Position numbers and translations under genes: made by a program
The notes under the pieces: model-generated
What the model saw: only the letters and a program-made list of their open reading frames with translations
What the model was told of the DNA's origin: nothing
Databases searched by the model: none
Source of the DNA: Clostridiales bacterium
GTDB taxonomy: Bacteria; Bacillota; Clostridia; Lachnospirales; Lachnospiraceae
Length of the DNA stretch: 64,000 bases
Assembly: GCA_012839295.1 (NCBI GenBank)
Contig: DUNO01000005.1
Coordinates: 1-64,000 of the forward strand
Reading direction: 5' to 3'
Shown here: in pieces, positions 2,433 through 64,000 of the stretch
Numbering within the stretch: the stretch's first letter is position 1
Layout of the letters: each line of letters begins with the position of its first letter

Positions 2433-5090
2433 TTACTCTTCAGAAGGCCTTTCTGCCTGGTCTTCTTCCCCGTCCTCCCCAGGATCTGTGTCTTCCTCTT
2501 CCTGGTCAACGGCAGGCTCTTCATCACCGGGTATATCATCAAAATCATCGGCCTCGGAATAATCTACCGGTTCAACCGGCAGGTTCTCCTCATCCAGCTC
2601 TTTTTCCAGATTCTTAATTAACTCCTCATCAGAGGTGGAGGTATTGCTCTCCCTTACCTTTGCAAAGCTGGCAACCTTAATATCGGTCTCCGCATTAATT
2701 GACATTAATTTTACACCGGAGGTGATACGTCCAAGAACTGAAATATCACTCACTATCAGACGGATTATGATTCCCTCCGTTGTAATCAGCATTACTTCAT
2801 TCTCATCATTTACCGCCTTAACACCTATGACATCACCGGTCTTTTCTGTGATCTTATAGCATTTCACACCTTTTCCGCCCCGGCGTTGTACGGTGAATTC
2901 TTCAATATCCGTACGCTTACCCATGCCATTTTCAGAAACAATTAATAAATACTTACCCTGGGTATGCATCTGCATTCCCACAATCTGGTCCTCACCTGTC
3001 AGCGTCATACCGATTACGCCCATAGAGGTCCTGCCGGTGGGGCGCACATCCCGCTCATTAAAGCGGATACACATACCGTTCTTTGTCACCAGGAAGATAT
3101 CCTTCTGGTTGTTAGTTGATTTTACCTCAATCAGCTCATCATCTTCCCTTAAGTTGATGGCCTGCAGGCCTGATTTCCTGATATTCTCATATTCACGGAT
3201 CGGTGTTTTCTTTACAATACCATTCTTCGTCGCCATGAAAAGGAATCTGTTATCCTGATATTCCTTCAGCGGAATAATGGCAGTGATCCGTTCCTCCGGC
3301 AGTAGCTGCAGCAGATTTACAATTGCCGTACCCCTGGCAGTCCTTCCTGCCTCCGGAATCTCATATGCCTTGAGACGGTATACCCGGCCCTTATTTGTAA
3401 AGAACATGATATAGTGATGGTTGGTTGTCATCAATAAATCTTCGATAAAGTCCTCTTCAATGGTCTGCATTCCCTTAATGCCCTTACCACCCCGGTGCTG
3501 GCTCTTAAAATTATCAACGGTCATCCTCTTGATATAGCCCAGCCTGGTCTTGGCAATTACCGTATTTTCATTAGGGATCAGGTCCTCCATGGAAATGTCA
3601 AACTCATCAAAGCCGATGGAGGTTCTTCTGTCATCACCGTATTTATCACGGATTACTGTGATTTCATCCCTGATGACACCAAGTAACAGCTTCTCATCTG
3701 CAAGGATTGCTTTATATTCCGCAATCTTCGCCTGCAGCTCTGCATATTCGTTCTCCAGCCTCTCCCTTTCCAACCCGGTAAGAGCACGGAGCCTCATATC
3801 AATGATGGCCTGGGCCTGTACATCGGTTAAGCCAAAACGTTCGATTAAGCGTTCCTTCGCTATATTACCGTTTTGTGAGGACCGTATGATTGAGATTACC
3901 TCGTCAATATTATCAAGGGCAATCAGCAAGCCCTGTAAAATGTGGGCCCTTTCCTCAGCTTTATTTAAATCGTATTTTGTACGTCTGGTTACAACTTCTT
4001 TTTGATGCTGTAAGTAATAATTCAGCATCTGGTGCAGGTTCAGGATGCGGGGCTCATTATTTACCAGTGCAAGCATAATTACGCCGAAGGTATCCTGCAG
4101 CTGCGTATGCTTATAGAGCTGGTTCAACATGACATTCGCATTTACATCCCTGCGGAGCTCAATTACGATTCTCATGCCGGTACGGTCCGATTCGTCACGG
4201 AGCTCTGTGATCCCGTCAATCTTCTTTTCCTTTACAAGGTCTGCTATTTTCTCAATTAAGCGGGCCTTATTCACCATGTAGGGCAGCTCCGTTACTATGA
4301 TACGGTTCTTGCCATTTGCCATAGGCTCAATATCGGTGACGGCCCGGACACGGACCTTTCCTCTTCCTGTACGGTATGCCTCTTCAATACCGGCGGTTCC
4401 CAGTATCTCTGCACCTGTAGGGAAATCCGGTCCTTTGATGATCTGAAGCAGCTCTTCAATTTCCGTATCCCGGTCCTCCTCGATATGGTTATTGATGATT
4501 TTTAAGACACCATTAATAACCTCACGTAAATTGTGGGGAGGAATATTGGTAGCCATACCTACCGCGATACCGGAGGTACCGTTCACCAGCAGATTCGGAT
4601 ATCTGGAGGGCAGTACGCTGGGTTCCTTTTCTGTTTCGTCAAAGTTTGGATTAAAATCAACGGTATCTTTATTGATGTCCGACAGCATTTCCATGGAAAT
4701 CTTGCTCAGACGGGCCTCAGTATAACGCATCGCTGCCGCACTATCACCGTCAACGGAGCCGAAGTTTCCATGTCCATCAATTAACGGGTATCTGGTAGAG
4801 AAATCCTGCGCCAGCTTTACCAATGCCTCATATATGGAGCTGTCTCCATGAGGATGGTACTTACCCATGGTATCACCTACAATACGCGCACATTTACGGT
4901 GCGGCTTGTCGGGACCATTGTTCAACTCAATCATTGCATATAAAATTCTTCTCTGTACCGGTTTTAAACCGTCCCTTACATCGGGCAGGGCGCGTGCCGC
5001 AATAACAGACATGGCATAATCGATATAGGATGTTTCCATCGTCTTTCTTAAATCGACGTCATGCACCTTGTCGAAGATATTCTCTTCCAT
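2433..5090 (-). CDS. gyrA: DNA gyrase subunit A
   Basis: 885 residues from the ATG at 5090, chosen because GGAGGA lies 7 nt upstream; a TTG 18 nt earlier is less likely. N-terminal breakage-reunion domain has the catalytic Tyr in AMRYTEARL (about residue 121), and the quinolone-determining region reads [10 protein letters not shown], with Ser and Glu at the classic resistance positions (wild-type Gram-positive pattern). The C-terminal beta-pinwheel has GyrA boxes QHRGGKG and QRRGGKG. It ends in a long acidic tail rich in Glu/Asp, common in Firmicutes GyrA. Works with GyrB as A2B2 to introduce negative supercoils. It lies 58 nt after gyrB in the dnaA-dnaN-yaaA-recF-gyrB-gyrA arm. Confidence 0.98.
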
Positions 5091-13016: not shown

Positions 13017-14279
13017 TTGTTTATTACTTTATTGACTAAAACAGGAGGGTGGTTAGGACCCTTCGCTTACATTTTTGGTTTGATCATGAATGGAATATAC
13101 GAATTTTTTTCTATATTCGGTATCCAAAATATAGCCCTATCCATTATTATATTTACGTTCATTACCAGGGCATTAATGATTCCCTTAACAATTAAGCAGC
13201 AAAAATTTACGAAGCTCTCATCCATTATGAACCCTGAGATCCAAAAGGTACAGGCGAAATATAAGGGTAAAAAAGATGAAGCCTCCATGAGGAAACAGCA
13301 GGAAGAAACCCAGGCTATTTACGAGAAATACGGTGCTAACCCGACTGCAGGTTGTTTGCCAATGTTAGTAACCCTTCCGATCATGTTCGCATTATATGCC
13401 GTAATTAATAATATTCCTGCTTATGTAGATCCGGTTTATAAGTTATACGAATATATTGCAGTACAGGTTATGCAGGTACCAGATTATGCAGGAACCTTGG
13501 GAACCCTGGCAGAGGGGCTTAAAAATGTAAGAATGTCCGCTGATATGACGACGGTACCGGCTGTTATTGATGTATTAAAGCATTTTAATGCAAATACCTG
13601 GGCCGAATTTGCGACGAGCTTTCCTGGTATCCAGAGCAGTATTGTAGATGGAAATGCCTTGACGGTTGCAGATACCATAAAGAATATCGGTAATGTAAAC
13701 GGCTTTTTAGGTCTTAATATTTCAAATCCTCCGGGCTGGAGATTCCCTGCAATCCTGATTCCGATTCTGGCAGGCGGATTGCAATTTGTACAGACAAAAC
13801 AAATACAGGTAAAGACTGATAACAAGGATAATCCGATGGCAGCTTCCATGAATTCAATGAATGTTGTAATGCCGATTATGTCCGCGCTCTTTGCTGTGAC
13901 CTTCCCTATCGGTATTGGCCTTTACTGGATTACCGGTAGTGTATTTGCAATTATCCAGCAGTATTTTGTAAATAAGTATATGCAGAGGGTGGATGTAAAT
14001 GAGCTGATTCAGAAAAATCTTACAAAGCAAAGTAAGAAGCAGGGTAAGAGGAAGGCTTATCTGGAGTCAAAGGGTCTCTCTATGGCTGACCTGGCAAGAA
14101 CCCAGACTAAGAATATTGAAAGTTCCGCAAAGGAGAAGGCGGAAACAACTGATTCTAATGAAGATGAGAAAGGCAATGTGGGAAGTGTAAGCCAAAAGAG
14201 TAAATCCTCAAATGGTTCCAAAAGTATCTCTGATATCGCGAACATTTTGAACAGCAGAAATGAAAAGGGGGATAAATAG
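13017..14279 (+). CDS. yidC: Membrane protein insertase YidC/Oxa1 family
   Basis: 420 residues starting at TTG (13017), chosen because TAAGGAGG lies 8-9 nt upstream. Five hydrophobic segments are apparent, including ALSIIIFTFITRALMIPL (about 42-60), LPMLVTLPIMFALYAV (about 118), and two near the C-terminus (FPAILIPILAGGL and PIMSALFAVTFPIGIGLYW). The cytoplasmic loop KQQKFTKLSSIMNPEIQ and the hydrophilic Lys/Ser-rich tail after residue 330 fit Oxa1-type YidC. Unlike proteobacterial YidC it has no large periplasmic domain, but an extended loop (about 140-235) separates the second and third helices, a Clostridia feature. Confidence 0.95.
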   Translation: MFITLLTKTGGWLGPFAYIFGLIMNGIYEFFSIFGIQNIALSIIIFTFITRALMIPLTIKQQKFTKLSSIMNPEIQKVQAKYKGKKDEASMRKQQEETQAIYEKYGANPTAGCLPMLVTLPIMFALYAVINNIPAYVDPVYKLYEYIAVQVMQVPDYAGTLGTLAEGLKNVRMSADMTTVPAVIDVLKHFNANTWAEFATSFPGIQSSIVDGNALTVADTIKNIGNVNGFLGLNISNPPGWRFPAILIPILAGGLQFVQTKQIQVKTDNKDNPMAASMNSMNVVMPIMSALFAVTFPIGIGLYWITGSVFAIIQQYFVNKYMQRVDVNELIQKNLTKQSKKQGKRKAYLESKGLSMADLARTQTKNIESSAKEKAETTDSNEDEKGNVGSVSQKSKSSNGSKSISDIANILNSRNEKGDK

Positions 14280-15265: not shown

Positions 15266-16648
15266 ATGATGGTGAATACGGATACGATAGCGGCAGTTGC
15301 TACTGGTATGAGCAATGCAGGAATAAGCATAGTCAGGATTAGCGGTGATCATGCATTTAAGATCATAGATCAGATCTATCAGTCGAAGTCCGGTAAGAAA
15401 AGACTGTCCCAGGAAAAAAGCCACACCCTGCATTATGGATATCTTGTGGATGAGGGCCAGATGCTTGATGAAGTGATGGTTGCCATTATGAGGGCTCCCT
15501 CCACCTATACCAGGGAGGATACGGTGGAAATAAACTGCCATGGTGGGGTCGTGGTAACCAGAAGGGTATTGGAGGCGGTCCTTAAGCATGGTGCAAGAAT
15601 TGCTGAGCCCGGTGAATTTACAAAACGAGCATTCTTAAATGGAAGGATCGACTTGTCCCAGGCGGAAGCAGTATGTGATATCATCCATGCGAAAAATGAT
15701 TTGGCGTTAAAGAACTCTTTAAACCAGCTGAGAGGAAATGTGCTTGAGCTGATTAAATCCCTAAGGGAGAAAATACTCCGGGATATTGCATTTATAGAAG
15801 CGGCTTTGGACGATCCTGAGCATATCAGCTTAGAGGGCTTTGATTCGGAGTTAATGCAGCACCTGGAGGAGGAATACAAAGAAATAGACCGTCTGGTCCG
15901 GGAATCCAGGAATGGTAAAATCATTAAGGAAGGAATAAAAACCGTAATTGTAGGTAAGCCGAATGCGGGCAAATCAAGCCTGTTAAACAGCCTTGTGGGT
16001 GAGGACCGGGCAATTGTCACGGATATTGCGGGAACAACCAGGGATACCCTGGAGGAGACAATTAACCTGAATGGAATTATTCTAAATGTGATTGATACAG
16101 CTGGAATCCGGGATACGGAGGATGTGATAGAGAAAATGGGCGTGGATAAGGCCCTGCGTATCGTATCAGAGGCTGATTTAATCATTTTTGTATTAGATTC
16201 CTCTACGGATATGGATGAGAATGATATCACAATCCTTGAAATGCTGCATGATAAAAAAGCTATCCTGCTTTTAAATAAATCTGACCTGGAAGCGAAAATT
16301 ACAGCAGAGGATATTCTTAAGAAAACCAAGCATCCTGTCATTAGTGTTTCCATTAAGGAAAATACGGGCTTGGATGAATTTCAAAGGGTAATTAAGGAGA
16401 TGTTCTTCGGAGGAGAGCTATCCTTTAATGATGATATTTATATTACCAATGAGAGGCATAGGGAGGCATTACTCGATACCTTGGAAAGCATTAAGCTTGT
16501 AAAAAGCAGTATTGAGGCAGGAATGCCGGAGGACTTTTATTCGATTGACCTGATGAATGCCTACGAGGCCCTTGGGAGGATTATTGGTGAGAATGTGGAA
16601 GAGGATCTGGTTAATATGATTTTCAAAGAATTCTGTATGGGTAAATAG
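15266..16648 (+). CDS. mnmE: tRNA uridine-5-carboxymethylaminomethyl modification GTPase MnmE
   Basis: 460 residues. N-terminal tetrahydrofolate-binding domain (about 1-120) begins DTIAAVATGMSNAGISIVRISG. The inserted G domain has P-loop GKPNAGKSS (about 230), switch TDIAGTTRD, DTAG, and NKSD. The C-terminus is FCMGK, matching the conserved catalytic Cys-Gly-Lys end (C at -4). With MnmG it installs cmnm5U34 on tRNAs. GGAGG before ATG ATG; the second ATG could also serve. mnmG follows after a 382-bp spacer that contains a palindromic repeat. Confidence 0.97.
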   Translation: MMVNTDTIAAVATGMSNAGISIVRISGDHAFKIIDQIYQSKSGKKRLSQEKSHTLHYGYLVDEGQMLDEVMVAIMRAPSTYTREDTVEINCHGGVVVTRRVLEAVLKHGARIAEPGEFTKRAFLNGRIDLSQAEAVCDIIHAKNDLALKNSLNQLRGNVLELIKSLREKILRDIAFIEAALDDPEHISLEGFDSELMQHLEEEYKEIDRLVRESRNGKIIKEGIKTVIVGKPNAGKSSLLNSLVGEDRAIVTDIAGTTRDTLEETINLNGIILNVIDTAGIRDTEDVIEKMGVDKALRIVSEADLIIFVLDSSTDMDENDITILEMLHDKKAILLLNKSDLEAKITAEDILKKTKHPVISVSIKENTGLDEFQRVIKEMFFGGELSFNDDIYITNERHREALLDTLESIKLVKSSIEAGMPEDFYSIDLMNAYEALGRIIGENVEEDLVNMIFKEFCMGK

Positions 16649-57527: not shown

Positions 57528-57700
57528 ATTATCATACAAGTCAACAAAAAACCTCCAATTCATTTATTATACGACAAAGAAAAAGGCAAATTTAGGGGAA
57601 ATGAATATATTAATAGTGTCTGTGATCAATGCTCCGGGAGCTTTCCTAATTGCTCCAGGACATGAAATCAGGACATATTAACGGATTAGGAGGAATCAGA

Positions 57701-58162
57701 ATGAGGACGGATACGAAAGGGATTAAATTAATAGAAAAGTTTGAGGGCTGTAAATTGAAAGCATACAAATGTCCCGCCGGAGTATGGACAATCGGAATCG
57801 GCCATACAGGAACGGTTCTGGGAAAAAAGGTTGGACCAGGGATGAAAATAACTTATCCCCACGCAATCAGGATACTGAATACGGACATTAAGAAATTTGA
57901 GACCTATGTAAATCAGTATGTGCAGGTACCGGTCACACAGAACCAGTTTGATGCATTAGTATCCTTCTGCTTTAATGTAGGGCCGGGAAACTTGAAAAAA
58001 TCTACCCTGCTTAAAAAACTGAATAAAAAGGATTATGCCGGGGCAGCTGCTGAGTTTCCAAAATGGAACAAGGGGGATATTGACGGAAGCGGTACTCTTG
58101 TGGCAATTGCAGGGCTGACACGGCGCAGGAAGGCAGAGCAGGAATTATTTAACCTGAAATAA
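57701..58162 (+). CDS. Phage-type lysozyme (glycoside hydrolase family 24)
   Basis: 153 residues from ATG 57701 (TAGGAGGA 7 nt upstream). T4/P22-lysozyme type: catalytic Glu in IEKFEGCKLKAY (about 13), GVWTIGIGHTG with the catalytic Asp/Thr region (about 26-37), QFDALVSFCFNVGPGNLKKSTLLKKLN (in parts: FDALVSFCFNVGPG). No signal peptide, so release would need a holin, which was not seen. Marks the left part of the phage-derived locus; in tail-particle loci such enzymes lyse the producer cell. Confidence 0.92.
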   Translation: MRTDTKGIKLIEKFEGCKLKAYKCPAGVWTIGIGHTGTVLGKKVGPGMKITYPHAIRILNTDIKKFETYVNQYVQVPVTQNQFDALVSFCFNVGPGNLKKSTLLKKLNKKDYAGAAAEFPKWNKGDIDGSGTLVAIAGLTRRRKAEQELFNLK

Positions 58163-59960: not shown

Positions 59961-60037
59961 TTAAAGTGAGTAAAAAGCATTAGAAAGATAAAAAAGTTTA
60001 AGTTTTAGCTTGACAGCTTTCTTAAAGCGAGTATAAT
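59961..60037. promoter_or_regulatory. Divergent control region of the phage-derived locus
   Basis: Direct repeat CTTAAAGYGAGTA at 59961-59973 and 60021-60033, probable operators for the XRE repressor. The rightward promoter is TTGACA (60010-60015), 16-bp spacer, TATAAT (60032-60037); the second operator overlaps its -10. The first operator abuts a leftward -35-like TTGCAA ahead of a TATAAT for the repressor gene. The layout resembles cI/cro control. Confidence 0.75.
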
Positions 60038-60151
60038 GAAAGATACAAATTAAAAATAGAACATATGTTCTAAAAGCTGGAGCGAATTGGACAGTAATAA
60101 TTGTATCGGAGCCAAACAAAATAAGATTACAGGATAAGGAGGAGTTTTAAT

Positions 60152-60592
60152 ATGACAGAATATGAATTAAGCCAATATAGAGCGATCCAAAGGGAGATTG
60201 AAGATCTCAGCCTAAGAATAAAAAAATTTGAAAATATGGGAACGCCTATGGTGTCCGATCGGGTGAAAGGTTCGTCAAGACATTTTCCATATATAGAAAA
60301 GTATTATTATGTGTCCGGTGTTGATACGGAGGCATGTAATAAACGGAAAAAGCTTATTTTGGAGTTGCAGAGGAAGCGTAATGATAAGGTGGAGGAGCTT
60401 CTAAGGATGGAAAATGAAATCCATGATTATATTTACACTATTCCAGATAGCGAGGTTAGGCAGATATTTGTCTTCCGCTATATTGACGGGATGTCCCAGG
60501 AGGAGATAGGGGAAAAGCTACATATGGACCGAAGCGGCGTGTCAAAGAGAATTACAAAGTATCTGGGGGTGACGAAAGCCAGGAGCAGATAG
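60152..60592 (+). CDS. Sigma-70 region-4-like phage transcription activator (ArpU/Xpf type)
   Basis: 146 residues. N-terminal coiled-coil-rich part with a YKS/ArpU-like layout, VSGVDTEACNKRKKLILELQRKRN, and a C-terminal HTH of region-4 type: IPDSEVRQIFVFRYIDGMSQEEIGEKLHMDRSGVSKRITKYLG (in parts: MSQEEIGEKLHMDRSGVSKRITKYL). Such proteins (Xpf of PBSX, ArpU, RinA) activate late genes. AAGGAGGAG before ATG. Three promoters with a shared odd -35 box lie directly downstream, plausible targets. Confidence 0.85.
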   Translation: MTEYELSQYRAIQREIEDLSLRIKKFENMGTPMVSDRVKGSSRHFPYIEKYYYVSGVDTEACNKRKKLILELQRKRNDKVEELLRMENEIHDYIYTIPDSEVRQIFVFRYIDGMSQEEIGEKLHMDRSGVSKRITKYLGVTKARSR

Positions 60593-60656
60593 GTTGAGAG
60601 GTTATATCAATAGGGGTACAGAGGAGGACAAGAATAATTGGGTAAGTCCGAAGTGG

Positions 60657-60823
60657 AACACAAATCACAATAATATCAGTTATAATCGTAGTATGGAAAA
60701 TTATCAGAATTAATTGAATACGAATAAAGCGGTAGTCCAGGGGACTGCTACAAAAACGGAATGCTAAGGTCAGGAAGCTTTAAATCCTATGAGAAACGTT
60801 TTTGTGGCAGTTCTTATTTCTTT
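60657..60823 (+). ncRNA. Tandem promoter-hairpin unit 1 (candidate small RNA)
   Basis: AACACAAATCACAA at the -35 position, TATAAT at 60681-60686 (offset 24), ATG 7 nt after it opening a six-codon frame MENYQN-stop. A 15-bp stem pairs 60744-60758 (ACTGCTACAAAAACG) with 60797-60811, followed by T-rich TTCTTATTTCTTT. Predicted RNA is about 130 nt. See units 2 and 3. Confidence 0.6.
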
Positions 60824-60894
60824 CAATTATTAAGAAAGGATAATCAGGGATATTAAATGGAGCAGGGAATAAACTGATAGCTGAATCCACCTCG

Positions 60895-61058
60895 CACACA
60901 AATCACAAGGGAGGCTGTTATAATAGTATTATGGAAGATTATCAAAATTAATTGGATATGGATAATGAGTTGGTTTAGAGGACTGATGCAAAATGGAATT
61001 TTGAGGATAAGAAATTATATCCCAATGAGAATTGTTTTGCGGAGGCCTCTTTCTTTTA
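60895..61058 (+). ncRNA. Tandem promoter-hairpin unit 2 (candidate small RNA)
   Basis: CACACAAATCACAA, TATAAT at 60919-60924 (offset 24), ATG at 60931 opening MEDYQN-stop. The terminal stem pairs 60978-60994 with about 61031-61049 (internal loops present), followed by TCTTTCTTTT. It begins 238 bp after unit 1. Confidence 0.6.
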
Positions 61059-61125
61059 ATGCCAGCGGAGCCGGAGCAGATATCAAAATAGAAAAAGAAG
61101 ATAAATGATACCCGCATCCATCCTG

Positions 61126-61285
61126 CACACAAATCACAAAAGAAGCTGCTATAATAGTATTATGGAAAGCTATCAAAAATAATTGATAGGCACAAAGAGT
61201 TGACTCAGAAAGCTGTTGCAAAGCAAATGTAAGGATTAAAAAACGAATCCTTATGTTAGATGCTTTGTGGTGGCTTCTTCTTTTA
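61126..61285 (+). ncRNA. Tandem promoter-hairpin unit 3 (candidate small RNA)
   Basis: CACACAAATCACAA, TATAAT at 61150-61155 (offset 24), ATG at 61162 opening MESYQK-stop. Stem AAGCTGTTGCAAAGCA (61210-61225) pairs along all 16 positions (with G-U) with TGCTTTGTGGTGGCTT (61261-61276), plus an inner hairpin AAGGATT/AATCCTT, then CTTCTTTTATAT. It begins 231 bp after unit 2. Bases 61286-61562 hold no recognised gene. Confidence 0.6.
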
Positions 61286-61562
61286 TATGGTTTGGATAAA
61301 ATATGGTTGTGTTATAAACACGGGGGAACGTAATCAGGAAATAATTTGGGGTGGGCATGTGATTACGGTAAAGTAACAGGAAATATGAGAAAAAGCATTC
61401 AATTAGGGAATTCTCAGGTTCATTTACATAATGGCCTAAGATTTATATAAATAATTATTCCAGGTCTTTTTGCCGGCTTGCAGACGTAAAAGAACAAGGC
61501 AGACGCTATATCAGGAGAAGGAACACTCGTAAACACCGTAGATATGGAAGGGAGAGATTAGT

Positions 61563-62132
61563 TTGGAGTATACGAAGCTTTTGGAAGGACAAGGGTTGTC
61601 AGAGGAGCAGATAAAATCAATTGTAAAGGCAATGTGGAAAAACAGGATATTCATTACCCATGAGGAACACTTGGAAGAGAGATACCAGAAAATGAGGCTC
61701 CAAAGGAATCTTCTAAAGAAGAAATTGGAGCTCGCAGAAAAAGCAGTGAAAAATGCCCAGAGGATTATGGAGACACAGGAGGACATTGGGCAAATACGCA
61801 GCTACTATGAAGGAAAAATGAATTCCTTGAAGCAGGAATATGAAGAAAAAATTATCAGAACCAGAATTGATGAAGCCATCAGGACGTCATTAGGGAACAC
61901 CAGGTATCCGGAGCTATTGGCCGCAAAGGTCGACAAATCAAAGGTTACATTTGATATGGATGGTAATTTAACCGGTATAGAAGAGCAACTAATTGCTTTA
62001 CAGAGGGAGTATAAGGAATTTTTTTCAGGGCCGGATAGCTCCGGCAGGGAGAAGGAAAATCCGGGTACCTGCTTTAACCTCATTCTGCAGACTGACCTGC
62101 CAATAAAGACTGCCAGGGGGACAAGTATCTGA
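61563..62132 (+). CDS. Phage GP20-like scaffold protein
   Basis: 189 residues starting at TTG (GGGAGAG 6-7 nt upstream). Central coiled coil (about 30-105). The C-terminal part, RYPELLAAKVDKSKVTFDMDGNLTG and GIEEQLIALQREYKEFF, matches the ending of GP20/DUF4355 minor structural (scaffold) proteins. The last 25 residues are unlike the family. A scaffold normally pairs with a capsid gene, but none follows, so it may be a leftover or have been recruited for tail assembly. Confidence 0.7.
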   Translation: MEYTKLLEGQGLSEEQIKSIVKAMWKNRIFITHEEHLEERYQKMRLQRNLLKKKLELAEKAVKNAQRIMETQEDIGQIRSYYEGKMNSLKQEYEEKIIRTRIDEAIRTSLGNTRYPELLAAKVDKSKVTFDMDGNLTGIEEQLIALQREYKEFFSGPDSSGREKENPGTCFNLILQTDLPIKTARGTSI

Positions 62133-62204: not shown

Positions 62205-62615
62205 ATGATCAGTGATGTTAAATCGGCAATTACCAGTAAGCTTATGGGGTTATACCCGACAGGCTATGCCATATATGATGAAGAGGCTCCTGAAACAGCT
62301 GCAAAGCCATATTTTCTTATCTCCGTAACAAACCAGACCTACAGCAAGCGGTTTAATAATAAGTATAGCAGCGTGTTATACCTGGATATTGCCTACCATA
62401 GTGACCAGGCGGAGGTCAGGGCTGATGGTATCAGCAAGCAGGAGGCTCTGCTCAGGGATTTTGATTACATAAGCACTTATAAGGTAAGGAATAAAGCCGC
62501 GAAGATAACAGACAATGTGTTGCATTTCACCTTCGATCTCCAATATTACGAGCTGACTAAGGAAGAGTTCACTCTTATGCAACAGCAAACCATTAATACA
62601 AGAGTAAAAATATAA
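62205..62615 (+). CDS. Phage tail terminator-like protein
   Basis: 136 residues of the small-protein class (DUF6838-like) that precedes the sheath gene in contractile-tail clusters. Visible: VKSAITSKLMGLYPTGYAIYDEE, PYFLISVTNQTYSKRFNNKY, and LDIAYHS. Probably caps the tail tube and sheath. It lies 12 nt before the sheath gene. The assignment rests mainly on size, position and partial resemblance. Confidence 0.72.
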   Translation: MISDVKSAITSKLMGLYPTGYAIYDEEAPETAAKPYFLISVTNQTYSKRFNNKYSSVLYLDIAYHSDQAEVRADGISKQEALLRDFDYISTYKVRNKAAKITDNVLHFTFDLQYYELTKEEFTLMQQQTINTRVKI

Positions 62616-62627
62616 AGGAGGCTTATC

Positions 62628-63677
62628 ATGTCAGGAACATGGACCAGTCAAAACAAAATATTACCGGGAGCGTATATTAATTTTCTAACAAATGCTCCAT
62701 TATCCATTACCCCGGGAGACAGAGGCGTAGTGGTATTACTTCAGGAAATGAGTGTTGGAGCTGCAGGAGAAATGTATACTATCACAGCTACTGAAGATAA
62801 TTATCCGGAAGGAATTACCGCCGCGGATAAACTATTGGTAAATGAAGCACTAAAGAATGCGAAGAAAATTGTTTTATACAATCTAGGATCAACCTCCCCG
62901 CATCTCATTTCAACAATCGAAACAGCATTGGCAGCTCTTAAAACAGTGCAATTCAACGTACTTTGCTATCCTTATTCAGCAGAAGAGCATAACAACGAAC
63001 AGGAAACCATTATGACCTGGATTAAGGCTATGCGCGACGATGAAGGGGTTAAGATACAGTACGTTACATCGAATTTCGGAGGTGACCACGAAGCTTGCAT
63101 TAACGTAATGAACGGTGTTGTATTATCGAATGGTACTATATTAACAGCAGCACAGGCAACCGCATGGGTAGCCGGTGCTACTGCTGGAGCAAAGGTCAAC
63201 CAATCTAATACAGGCAAGGCCTATGAAGGTGCGGTAGATGTAGCACCAAGGCTTACGAAATCGGAGATGGAGGCGGCAATTACAGCCGGTAAGTTTATCT
63301 TTAAAGTAAACAGTGCACAGAATGTTAGTGCGGTGTATGATATTAACTCCCTAGTAACCACAACGGTGGATAAAGGCGAAGTATTTAGGAAAAATAGGGT
63401 TGTTCGTACGGTTGATGGCATTAATAATGATATTATTGAAATTTTCGAAGCAAATTACGTTGGTAAAGTAAATAACAATGCGGACGGCAGATCGATGCTT
63501 CGTGCCACGCTGATTGAATATTTCGGTGAATTACAGCAATTGTCCGCCATTCAGAATTTCACGGAAAAGGATATAACAGTAACTGCTGGAACTGACAGCG
63601 ATGCGGTATTGGTGGAATGTAATATTCAACCAGTTGATAGTGTTGAAAAGATTTATATTACTGTCAAGCTGTCTTAA
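62628..63677 (+). CDS. Phage tail sheath protein (XkdK-like)
   Basis: 349 residues. Begins MSGTWTSQNKILPGAYINF, the common N-terminus of short Firmicutes sheaths; NAPLSITPGDRGVVVLLQEM and later SALQNFTEKDI-type end (here LSAIQNFTEKDITVTAGTD) with EYFGELQQ agree. Forms the contractile outer sheath. AAAGGAGG before ATG. Short length is typical of PBSX-like and diffocin-type particles. Confidence 0.93.
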   Translation: MSGTWTSQNKILPGAYINFLTNAPLSITPGDRGVVVLLQEMSVGAAGEMYTITATEDNYPEGITAADKLLVNEALKNAKKIVLYNLGSTSPHLISTIETALAALKTVQFNVLCYPYSAEEHNNEQETIMTWIKAMRDDEGVKIQYVTSNFGGDHEACINVMNGVVLSNGTILTAAQATAWVAGATAGAKVNQSNTGKAYEGAVDVAPRLTKSEMEAAITAGKFIFKVNSAQNVSAVYDINSLVTTTVDKGEVFRKNRVVRTVDGINNDIIEIFEANYVGKVNNNADGRSMLRATLIEYFGELQQLSAIQNFTEKDITVTAGTDSDAVLVECNIQPVDSVEKIYITVKLS

Positions 63678-63696
63678 TTAAGGGAGGGAAGAGTAA

Positions 63697-64000
63697 ATGG
63701 CAAATAATTATACTAGATTATCAGATACAATTACAGCGCAGGAAGGGACTGCCATCATTACAATTGATGGTCAGAACAGAGAGCTGTTTGAAATATCCAG
63801 CTTGAGAGCACAGCTTGATATGGTTGTCCAGGAAAGAAGAATGCTTGGACACAGGATGACACAGCATAAGGTGACAGGTGTCACAGGTACCGGTTCTGCA
63901 ACCTTATATTTCATGAATAGTGAACAATTAAACCTGGCAATTGATTTTATCAAAAATGGAACACGCAGTAATATCAAACTTAAGGTTAAAAACAATGATC
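63697..64000 (+). CDS. Phage tail tube protein (XkdM-like), partial
   Basis: 101 residues visible, truncated by the window edge. ATG 63697 with AAGGGAGGG upstream. N-terminus MANNYTRLSDTITAQEGTA and QERRMLGHRMTQHKVTGVTGTG match the tail tube (core) family found after the sheath. Polymerises into the inner tube. Confidence 0.9.
   Translation, partial: MANNYTRLSDTITAQEGTAIITIDGQNRELFEISSLRAQLDMVVQERRMLGHRMTQHKVTGVTGTGSATLYFMNSEQLNLAIDFIKNGTRSNIKLKVKNND

Follow-up and report, generated by a model that had tools for sequence, protein, structure and literature searches.

Tandem promoter units with terminator-like stems upstream of the tail operon of a headless tailocin

Results

A headless contractile tailocin lies behind a presumed late activator gene

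The window, i.e. the entire 64,000-nucleotide stretch of DNA analysed, ends inside a phage tail operon. Upstream of this operon lies the gene for a presumed late activator of 146 amino acids, with 970 bp separating it from the first operon gene, and this interval contains three tandem promoter-like units followed by a structured operon leader (Table 1). To the left of the activator gene, the minus strand encodes a CI-like repressor and an IrrE-like protease. The box in front of the activator gene is named LexA-type on the basis of GAACN4GTTC, which we take to be the Gram-positive LexA consensus.

Table 1 Features of the activator–tail operon interval and flanking genes (window coordinates).
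Feature	Position	Strand	Evidence and remarks
Consensus sigma-A promoter before the activator gene	60010..60037	+	TTGACA-16-TATAAT; 12/12 matches
LexA/SOS-type box GAACATATGTTC	60059..60070	+	Sole GAACN4GTTC in the 64 kb window
Presumed late activator, phrog_36	60152..60592	+	Sigma-70 region 4 at C-terminus; Pfam, PHROGs, PDB profile search
Unit 1 promoter	60659..60686	+	Operator 60659-60670 at -35; -10 TATAAT 60681-60686
Unit 1 predicted transcript	60693..60813	+	Presumed start at A of ATG, 60693; stem about 60742-60813
Unit 2 promoter	60897..60924	+	Operator 60897-60908; -10 60919-60924
Unit 2 predicted transcript	60931..61049	+	Stem about 60978-61049
Unit 3 promoter	61128..61155	+	Operator 61128-61139; -10 61150-61155
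Unit 3 predicted transcript	61162..61275	+	Stem about 61210-61275
Leader element GTGT..ACACGGGG then GTAATC..GGGTGGGC..GATTAC	61309..61366	+	In 6/8 aligned tailocin leaders
Leader inverted repeat CTCAGGT..GGCCTAAG, then TTTATATA-like stretch	61413..61450	+	8/8 aligned leaders with changes, by eye
GP20-b-like RNA element (RF03003) in tail-operon leader	61471..61540	+	26.4 bits, E 8e-4; gathering score 36.2
First tail-operon gene, phage scaffold/GP20 relic	61563..62132	+	PF06810
Tail terminator, sheath, tube; operon continues beyond window	62205..63999	+	Pfam, PHROGs

Past the window, the operon runs on for ~12 kb with genes for an XkdN-like chaperone, a LysM protein, a YqbQ-like protein, a sheath initiator, baseplate J, a Mu gp48-like protein, a holin and a lysozyme. 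The XkdN-like chaperone, baseplate J, holin and lysozyme are also found with the contractile tail operons of diffocins and PBSX-type tailocins, which the operon resembles in this respect. Neither terminase, portal nor capsid was found among the 18 proteins scanned with Pfam (including 16 of 25 plus-strand frames in the 57.0-76.9 kb region; the tube was assigned by PHROGs), leaving a single scaffold relic as the head component of an otherwise headless contractile tailocin. A head scaffold protein gene is retained at the start of the tail operon across related tailocin loci. Two phage-lysozyme genes flank the tailocin locus (window 57650-58162 and, in the locus denoted L145, 18346-18792).

The structure model of the activator is confident (mean pLDDT 90.4). 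When searched against PDB folds, most matches with a probability near 1 were sigma region 4, with no E-value <0.001, and the same near-1 group also includes LsrR, PhyR, KorA and prefoldin among the matches listed. A viral fold library returned 13 matches at E-values of 0.001 or below, several of them annotated as DUF1492 or sigma-70 region 4. The sigma region 4 matches, together with the absence of Q among the 50 PDB matches listed, suggest the activator looks like an initiation factor. A role as Q-like antiterminator was considered and is unsupported among the best 50 matches listed of each fold search.

The operon leader itself carries a block resembling the GP20-b RNA (RF03003), strongly conserved in 8/8 aligned leaders and located directly 5' of the scaffold relic. 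GP20-b is likewise a leader element preceding a GP20/scaffold gene, although the window match falls below the curated threshold, and the element does not attain the gathering score in three related tailocin loci (L043, L045 and L047). The window copy is located downstream of the three units and is no part of them. Two more conserved, structured-looking elements precede it in the leader. A literature search on GP20 motifs, and on prophage small RNAs combining anti-Shine-Dalgarno sequence and terminase, retrieved nothing.

Three units share an identical promoter geometry

Within region 60600-61290, three units display the same arrangement of CACAAATCACAA, 10 nt, TATAAT, 6 nt and ATG, the TATAAT beginning 22 nt past the start of CACAAATCACAA and the ATG opening at the seventh base past TATAAT in 3/3 cases. 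A preliminary description of this DNA had reported three tandem units with periods of 238 and 231 bp; the exact pattern recurs three times, with these repeat periods reproduced. It had placed the unit starts at 60657, 60895 and 61126, from which TATAAT is indeed 24 nt away, while the motif itself starts 2 nt later. The reported ATG, 7 nt after TATAAT, and the six-codon frames MENYQN, MEDYQN and MESYQK, each closed by TAA, were all reproduced, and the geometry makes a transcription start at the A of the ATG, as was expected, plausible.

This exact pattern occurs 3 times in the 6.36 Mb genome, in plus orientation only and never on the opposite strand, and 33 additional genomes of the genus are without it. 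When a 66-position profile was built from 20 units, those of the window among them, the three units were its only matches in the window (50-65 bits). Hence, the three units are real, are located as listed in Table 1 and do not reflect chance. Outside known tailocin loci, the 20-unit profile retrieved a lone site in one further genome (G027) and a weak match in another (G374). The G027 site (L166, about 1500-1560) is a solitary promoter of this class that follows an endolysin-like gene, with no activator in the 3 kb examined.

The three array promoters are missing from the output of a sigma-70 promoter scan, indicating no match at -35. The -35 position is instead occupied by an operator with CACA..CACA half-sites, followed by an extended TATAAT, and this combination is a candidate activator target (CACACAAATCACA).

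Beyond the promoter, the units are less alike than the near-identity originally described: across eight compared pairs, identity is 69-95% for the promoter and first 20 nt and 35-72% for the remainder. A similar division is seen between units 2 and 3 of the window and the two units of L043, where promoter (76-90%) and start region (90-95%) are well kept while stem and flanks (40-72%) and the upstream flank (40-53%) are not. These values suggest that units 2 and 3 have apparent orthologues in L043.

Stems follow the promoters and covary in the window and its relatives

Each unit does contain a stem, although not some 80 nt on, as first described: the stems begin about 50 nt past the ATG, with their ends near +114 to +121. 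Units 1 and 3 fold better than shuffled sequences (z -3.2 and -4.4, with 0/200 shuffles as good for each), while unit 2 is unconvincing (z -1.65; 10/200). T-tracts behind the stems of all three units are interrupted, and a simple terminator scan found no terminator at any of them. No Rfam family reaches its gathering score over the three units, the only matches being at chance level (E 0.77 and 4.3).

An alignment of 6 sequences, two of which are near-copies, and from which the structure was itself derived, gave a stem covariation score of 0.473 compared to 0.356 in shuffles (0/500 as high) and a maximum of 0.244 in slid controls. In this stem, 90.3% of alignment cells are paired and 8/21 pairs show double changes, a count that 35/500 shuffles reach. 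The covariation thus supports a stem kept by pairing. The earlier claim that the stems keep pairing therefore stands for the window and its relatives, with a score above 500/500 shuffles, but does not extend to every array: in L045 and L047 the promoters are only ~93 nt apart and no terminator-like stem was found between them, which suggests the stem is not the core of the unit. Stems between promoters are also weak in L051 and L123. The last promoter, by rule, is followed by a terminator-like stem in 7/9 tailocin loci, the exceptions being L043 (only weaker hairpins) and L049 (a different hairpin), with the expected stem seen by eye in both. Given that stems between promoters are missing or weak in some loci, the arrays appear to have in common multiple promoters and, ahead of the operon, a terminator-like stem.

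A direct repeat and -10 element are common behind activators of the family

Scans with the activator protein alone found no relative in viral or genome collections. An alignment search with ten proteins retrieved viral loci, of which the best 80 of 100 were used, while a tighter alignment retrieved one locus from genome contigs. The survey set comprises 80 viral loci, 23 genome loci and the window (104 loci, 81 clusters at 90% identity); 80/81 clusters have enough downstream DNA for a promoter test. A 9-bp direct repeat (at least 7/9 positions equal) followed by a -10 element was found near the activator stop in 48/80 clusters, compared to 1.2% of dinucleotide shuffles and 2.1% of random places. 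The repeat often lies inside the final codons of the activator gene. Its sequence varies by locus (CACACAAAT, ACGCATAAA, ACGCAACAA, TAAACCAAT, TTGTCCGTT and others), as expected of cognate sites.

The first operator repeat of the window is imperfect (6/9, below the survey cut-off), with the -10 located 88 bp past the activator stop. Other tailocins score 2-6 in the repeat table, L124 scores 8, and for several the scan had picked another site. The placement of window and tailocins in this class is hence based on position, geometry and half-site, as opposed to the strict repeat score.

Tailocin loci carry 2-7 promoter copies

Tailocin loci were recognised by scaffold, tail terminator, sheath and tube genes directly following, with the exception of L123, which was recognised by scaffold and tail terminator only. 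Nine such loci, including the window, contain a total of 32 units and form 7 clusters: the window has 3 promoters, L043 2, L044 2, L045 2, L047 7, L048 3, L049 6, L051 5 and L123 2. Both L048 and L124 fall within the cluster of L049, and L024 and L051 are one locus obtained from two sources. Left out of the counts were L124 (cut at a contig end) and L046 (interrupted by an insertion). In the latter, an insertion-sequence-like stretch occupies the place of the array behind the activator from position 3022 on. A search for more tailocins with the scaffold protein yielded few new loci.

All 7/7 intact tailocin clusters thus contain 2-7 promoters. Other loci of the activator family mostly have one, near the activator stop, and no second copy was seen in the available DNA of 42/46 other clusters (strict repeat, 1.4 kb downstream), the remaining 4 showing distant partial matches (Fisher 7/7 vs 4/46: 2e-6, kinship ignored). 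When mapped on the activator tree, the tailocin label requires two changes: one clade of ten rows holds 6/7 tailocin clusters, while L051 groups with L050, L053 and L054. Of these sisters, L050 and L054 have one unit each, and no unit was seen near the activator of L053. Arrays therefore occur in two activator lineages, both of them tailocins. The operators are not uniform, as the first units of L048 and L049 are without the CACA..CACA operator and all five of L051 have another one. In L047, 5/7 -10 boxes deviate from TATAAT, suggesting copies may be decaying.

Phage-type leaders are enriched in terminators and an anti-Shine-Dalgarno sequence

Loci in which the tail genes of the window do not directly follow are referred to as phage-type, although there may be further tailocins among L055, L080, L081, L083 and L126, where relatives of some tail genes occur. 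The sample consisted of 47 non-tailocin clusters, each having a strict repeat followed by 300 nt or more of DNA, taken from a second pass with slightly different scoring. A rule-based search called an intrinsic terminator no more than 220 nt from the start in 39/47, while 451 random windows gave 17.5%; when energies were limited to -12 kcal/mol or lower, the corresponding values are 34/47 and 7.1%.

Phage-type leaders are also enriched in CUCC, an anti-Shine-Dalgarno sequence. CTCC precedes the stem in 26/47 units, compared to 9.8 ± 2.6 in shuffles and 8% of random plus-strand windows, and 17/27 of its occurrences fall at +20 to +40. It is absent from the three leaders of the window. GGAA in the start region fails as a class-wide signal (9/47 vs 5.0 expected).

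Eight phage-type leaders and that of the Blautia phage Montmirail, picked by eye, have a GGCUGCC..GGUGGCUGA hairpin in common. In these nine loci (L125, L029, L102, L112, L041, L035, L038, L054 and L149), the hairpin resembles GGCUGCCgGGUGUcaaaGCcCGGuGGCUGA and follows a CUCC-like, C-rich stretch shortly past the activator promoter, and no Rfam family reaches its gathering score at the leader of these nine loci. The shared hairpin might constitute a new phage RNA family.

Comparison with known late-promoter systems

The preliminary description knew of no named family with such a layout, having overlooked the late promoters of Ltr/Alt-type phage activators (PMC13123087). At 146 amino acids, the window activator is within the size of about 130-150 aa typical of Ltr/Alt/RinA-type regulators. 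According to PMC13123087, Ltr of the Staphylococcus aureus phage Phi13 activates the late promoter P23, where three 18-bp repeats plus a partial copy span -107 to -42. We located the three 18-bp repeats in the Phi13 record, with TATAAT at 16054. The likeness to the window comprises a regulator gene immediately preceding the late genes and a TATA box, and Phi13 is induced by mitomycin C. Phi13 also has direct repeats at the 3' end of the regulator gene; repeats near the activator stop are frequent in the activator family (48/80 clusters), and that of the window is imperfect (6/9), with its -10 located 88 bp past the stop. Phi13 differs in its regulator (phrog_1058 vs phrog_36), in repeats that are not at -35, in having one such promoter and in being a true phage. 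The Phi13 sequence (L151, about 1055-1130) also contains a terminator-like hairpin (-9.9 kcal/mol) 34-54 nt past the P23 -10, followed by a T-run and located before the next gene. Its position behind the active P23 suggests a terminator-like hairpin is compatible with late expression; the published reporter reached 50 bp past the start, near the beginning of the T-run, and so may not test the hairpin.

In the Lactococcus phage TP901-1, four 11-mers lie at -76 to -33 when counted from the A at 13073; the match to the published range of -76 to -32 places the start at or next to this A. The start region (TATACT-TGTATT-ATGAAG) has the geometry of the window units almost letter for letter, and TP901-1 likewise has an activator, repeats and a hairpin with T-run (at 13517, before terS). 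It differs in that Alt belongs to phrog_2198, the four 11-bp repeats are upstream of -32 and the promoter is single. Between the window activator and either Alt or Phi13 Ltr there is no detectable homology (different PHROGs; hhalign probabilities 0.1%). By analogy, the activator may nevertheless work as Alt and Phi13 Ltr do, although the protein families differ.

In phage lambda, late transcription from PR' must pass the terminator tR' with the help of Q, and a short RNA results. The window layout of late promoter followed by a terminator-like stem resembles PR'-tR', with no Q among the 50 PDB matches listed for the activator.

In the literature searched, including passages of PMC13123087, PMC12197685 and PMC4243946, we found no description of tandem arrays or terminated leaders at such phage late promoters.

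Discussion

We propose that the three units are tandem activator-dependent late promoters with terminated leaders, belonging to a headless tailocin in which promoter copy number would replace genome replication. Anatomy, conservation, copy number, terminator enrichment and covariation are directly visible in the DNA, and we put the probability of this reading at roughly 0.7. Of the four proposals in the preliminary description, attenuated promoters come nearest to it.

The further steps, from LexA control through binding, start sites, termination and read-through to the dosage argument, are ones we infer. DNA damage would free the LexA-type box, such that the activator is made from its sigma-A promoter. 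The sigma-region-4-like domain of the activator would then bind the CACA..CACA half-sites in the place of a -35 box, allowing sigma-A polymerase to initiate on the A that forms the seventh base past the extended TATAAT. Each start would meet a terminator-like stem within about 120 nt; as every start runs into such a stem, most would presumably give short RNAs. With a terminator separating the promoter from the late genes, a read-through step is implied; the fraction reading through, whether by leakage or antitermination, would enter the GP20-b-like leader and then the tail operon. A phage replicates its genome after induction, and a single late promoter would be multiplied with it. The headless tailocin, presumably non-replicating, would have 2-7 promoter copies side by side instead. 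A point against the proposed reading is that good terminators in series would stop transcription from units 1 and 2 before it reached the operon.

The units could alternatively be small-RNA genes first and foremost, each providing a 5' single-stranded seed (AUGGAARRYURU...) and a terminator, multiplied for RNA dose and targeting host or tailocin mRNAs in trans, with the tail operon needing read-through or another promoter. We consider this unlikely. Small RNAs were among the original proposals, and short RNAs are indeed likely products judging from the layout; conservation of the first 20 nt and of stem pairing, as well as the frequent CTCC before the stem in phage-type units, would fit. However, the leaders of the window are devoid of CTCC, start-region letters shift among tailocins, good conservation between window and L043 is limited to the promoter and first 20 nt, and the closely spaced promoters of L045 and L047 have no stems found between them.

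Neutral tandem duplication of one promoter, with a copy number that is without function, appears improbable. Tandem repeats expand and shrink easily, L047, L049 and L051 each hold copies that by eye seem very similar to one another, and the off-consensus -10 boxes of L047 would be in keeping with such a history; the apparent orthologues of units 2 and 3 kept in L043, and the occurrence of arrays in two activator lineages that are both tailocins, argue against it.

That the leaderless hexapeptides themselves are the products, as had also been suggested, is very improbable. While 32/32 listed tailocin units have ATG, GTG or TTG at the predicted start, followed by GAA or AAA, the listing scan required this pattern, and a start codon 6 or 7 nt past the -10 occurs in only 9/47 phage-type units, which makes hexapeptides unlikely. 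Furthermore, tailocin frames range from 5 to 75 codons with unrelated ends, the unit in L124 is without the frame and TP901-1 has ATGAAGTAA at the equivalent place; we regard the short frames as accidental. Equally remote is the suggestion that the units are decoy sites titrating the activator, as extra operator copies do adjoin its gene but -10 and start region are kept together with the operator, and two to seven sites would presumably titrate little.

Returning to activator-dependent late promoters with terminated leaders, a wider and distinctly tentative extension, which may well not hold, is that late promoters of the sigma-region-4 activator family generally consist of a promoter and a short terminated leader RNA, often anti-Shine-Dalgarno. 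Such an arrangement would be a Gram-positive counterpart of PR'-tR' with a read-through step, and tailocins that have lost genome replication might compensate for the lost promoter copies by tandem arrays. The terminated, often anti-Shine-Dalgarno leaders might then form a class of late phage RNAs that are abundant in Firmicutes phages. For the tailocin, promoter copy number in place of genome copy number suggests how a single-copy locus might make enough particles.
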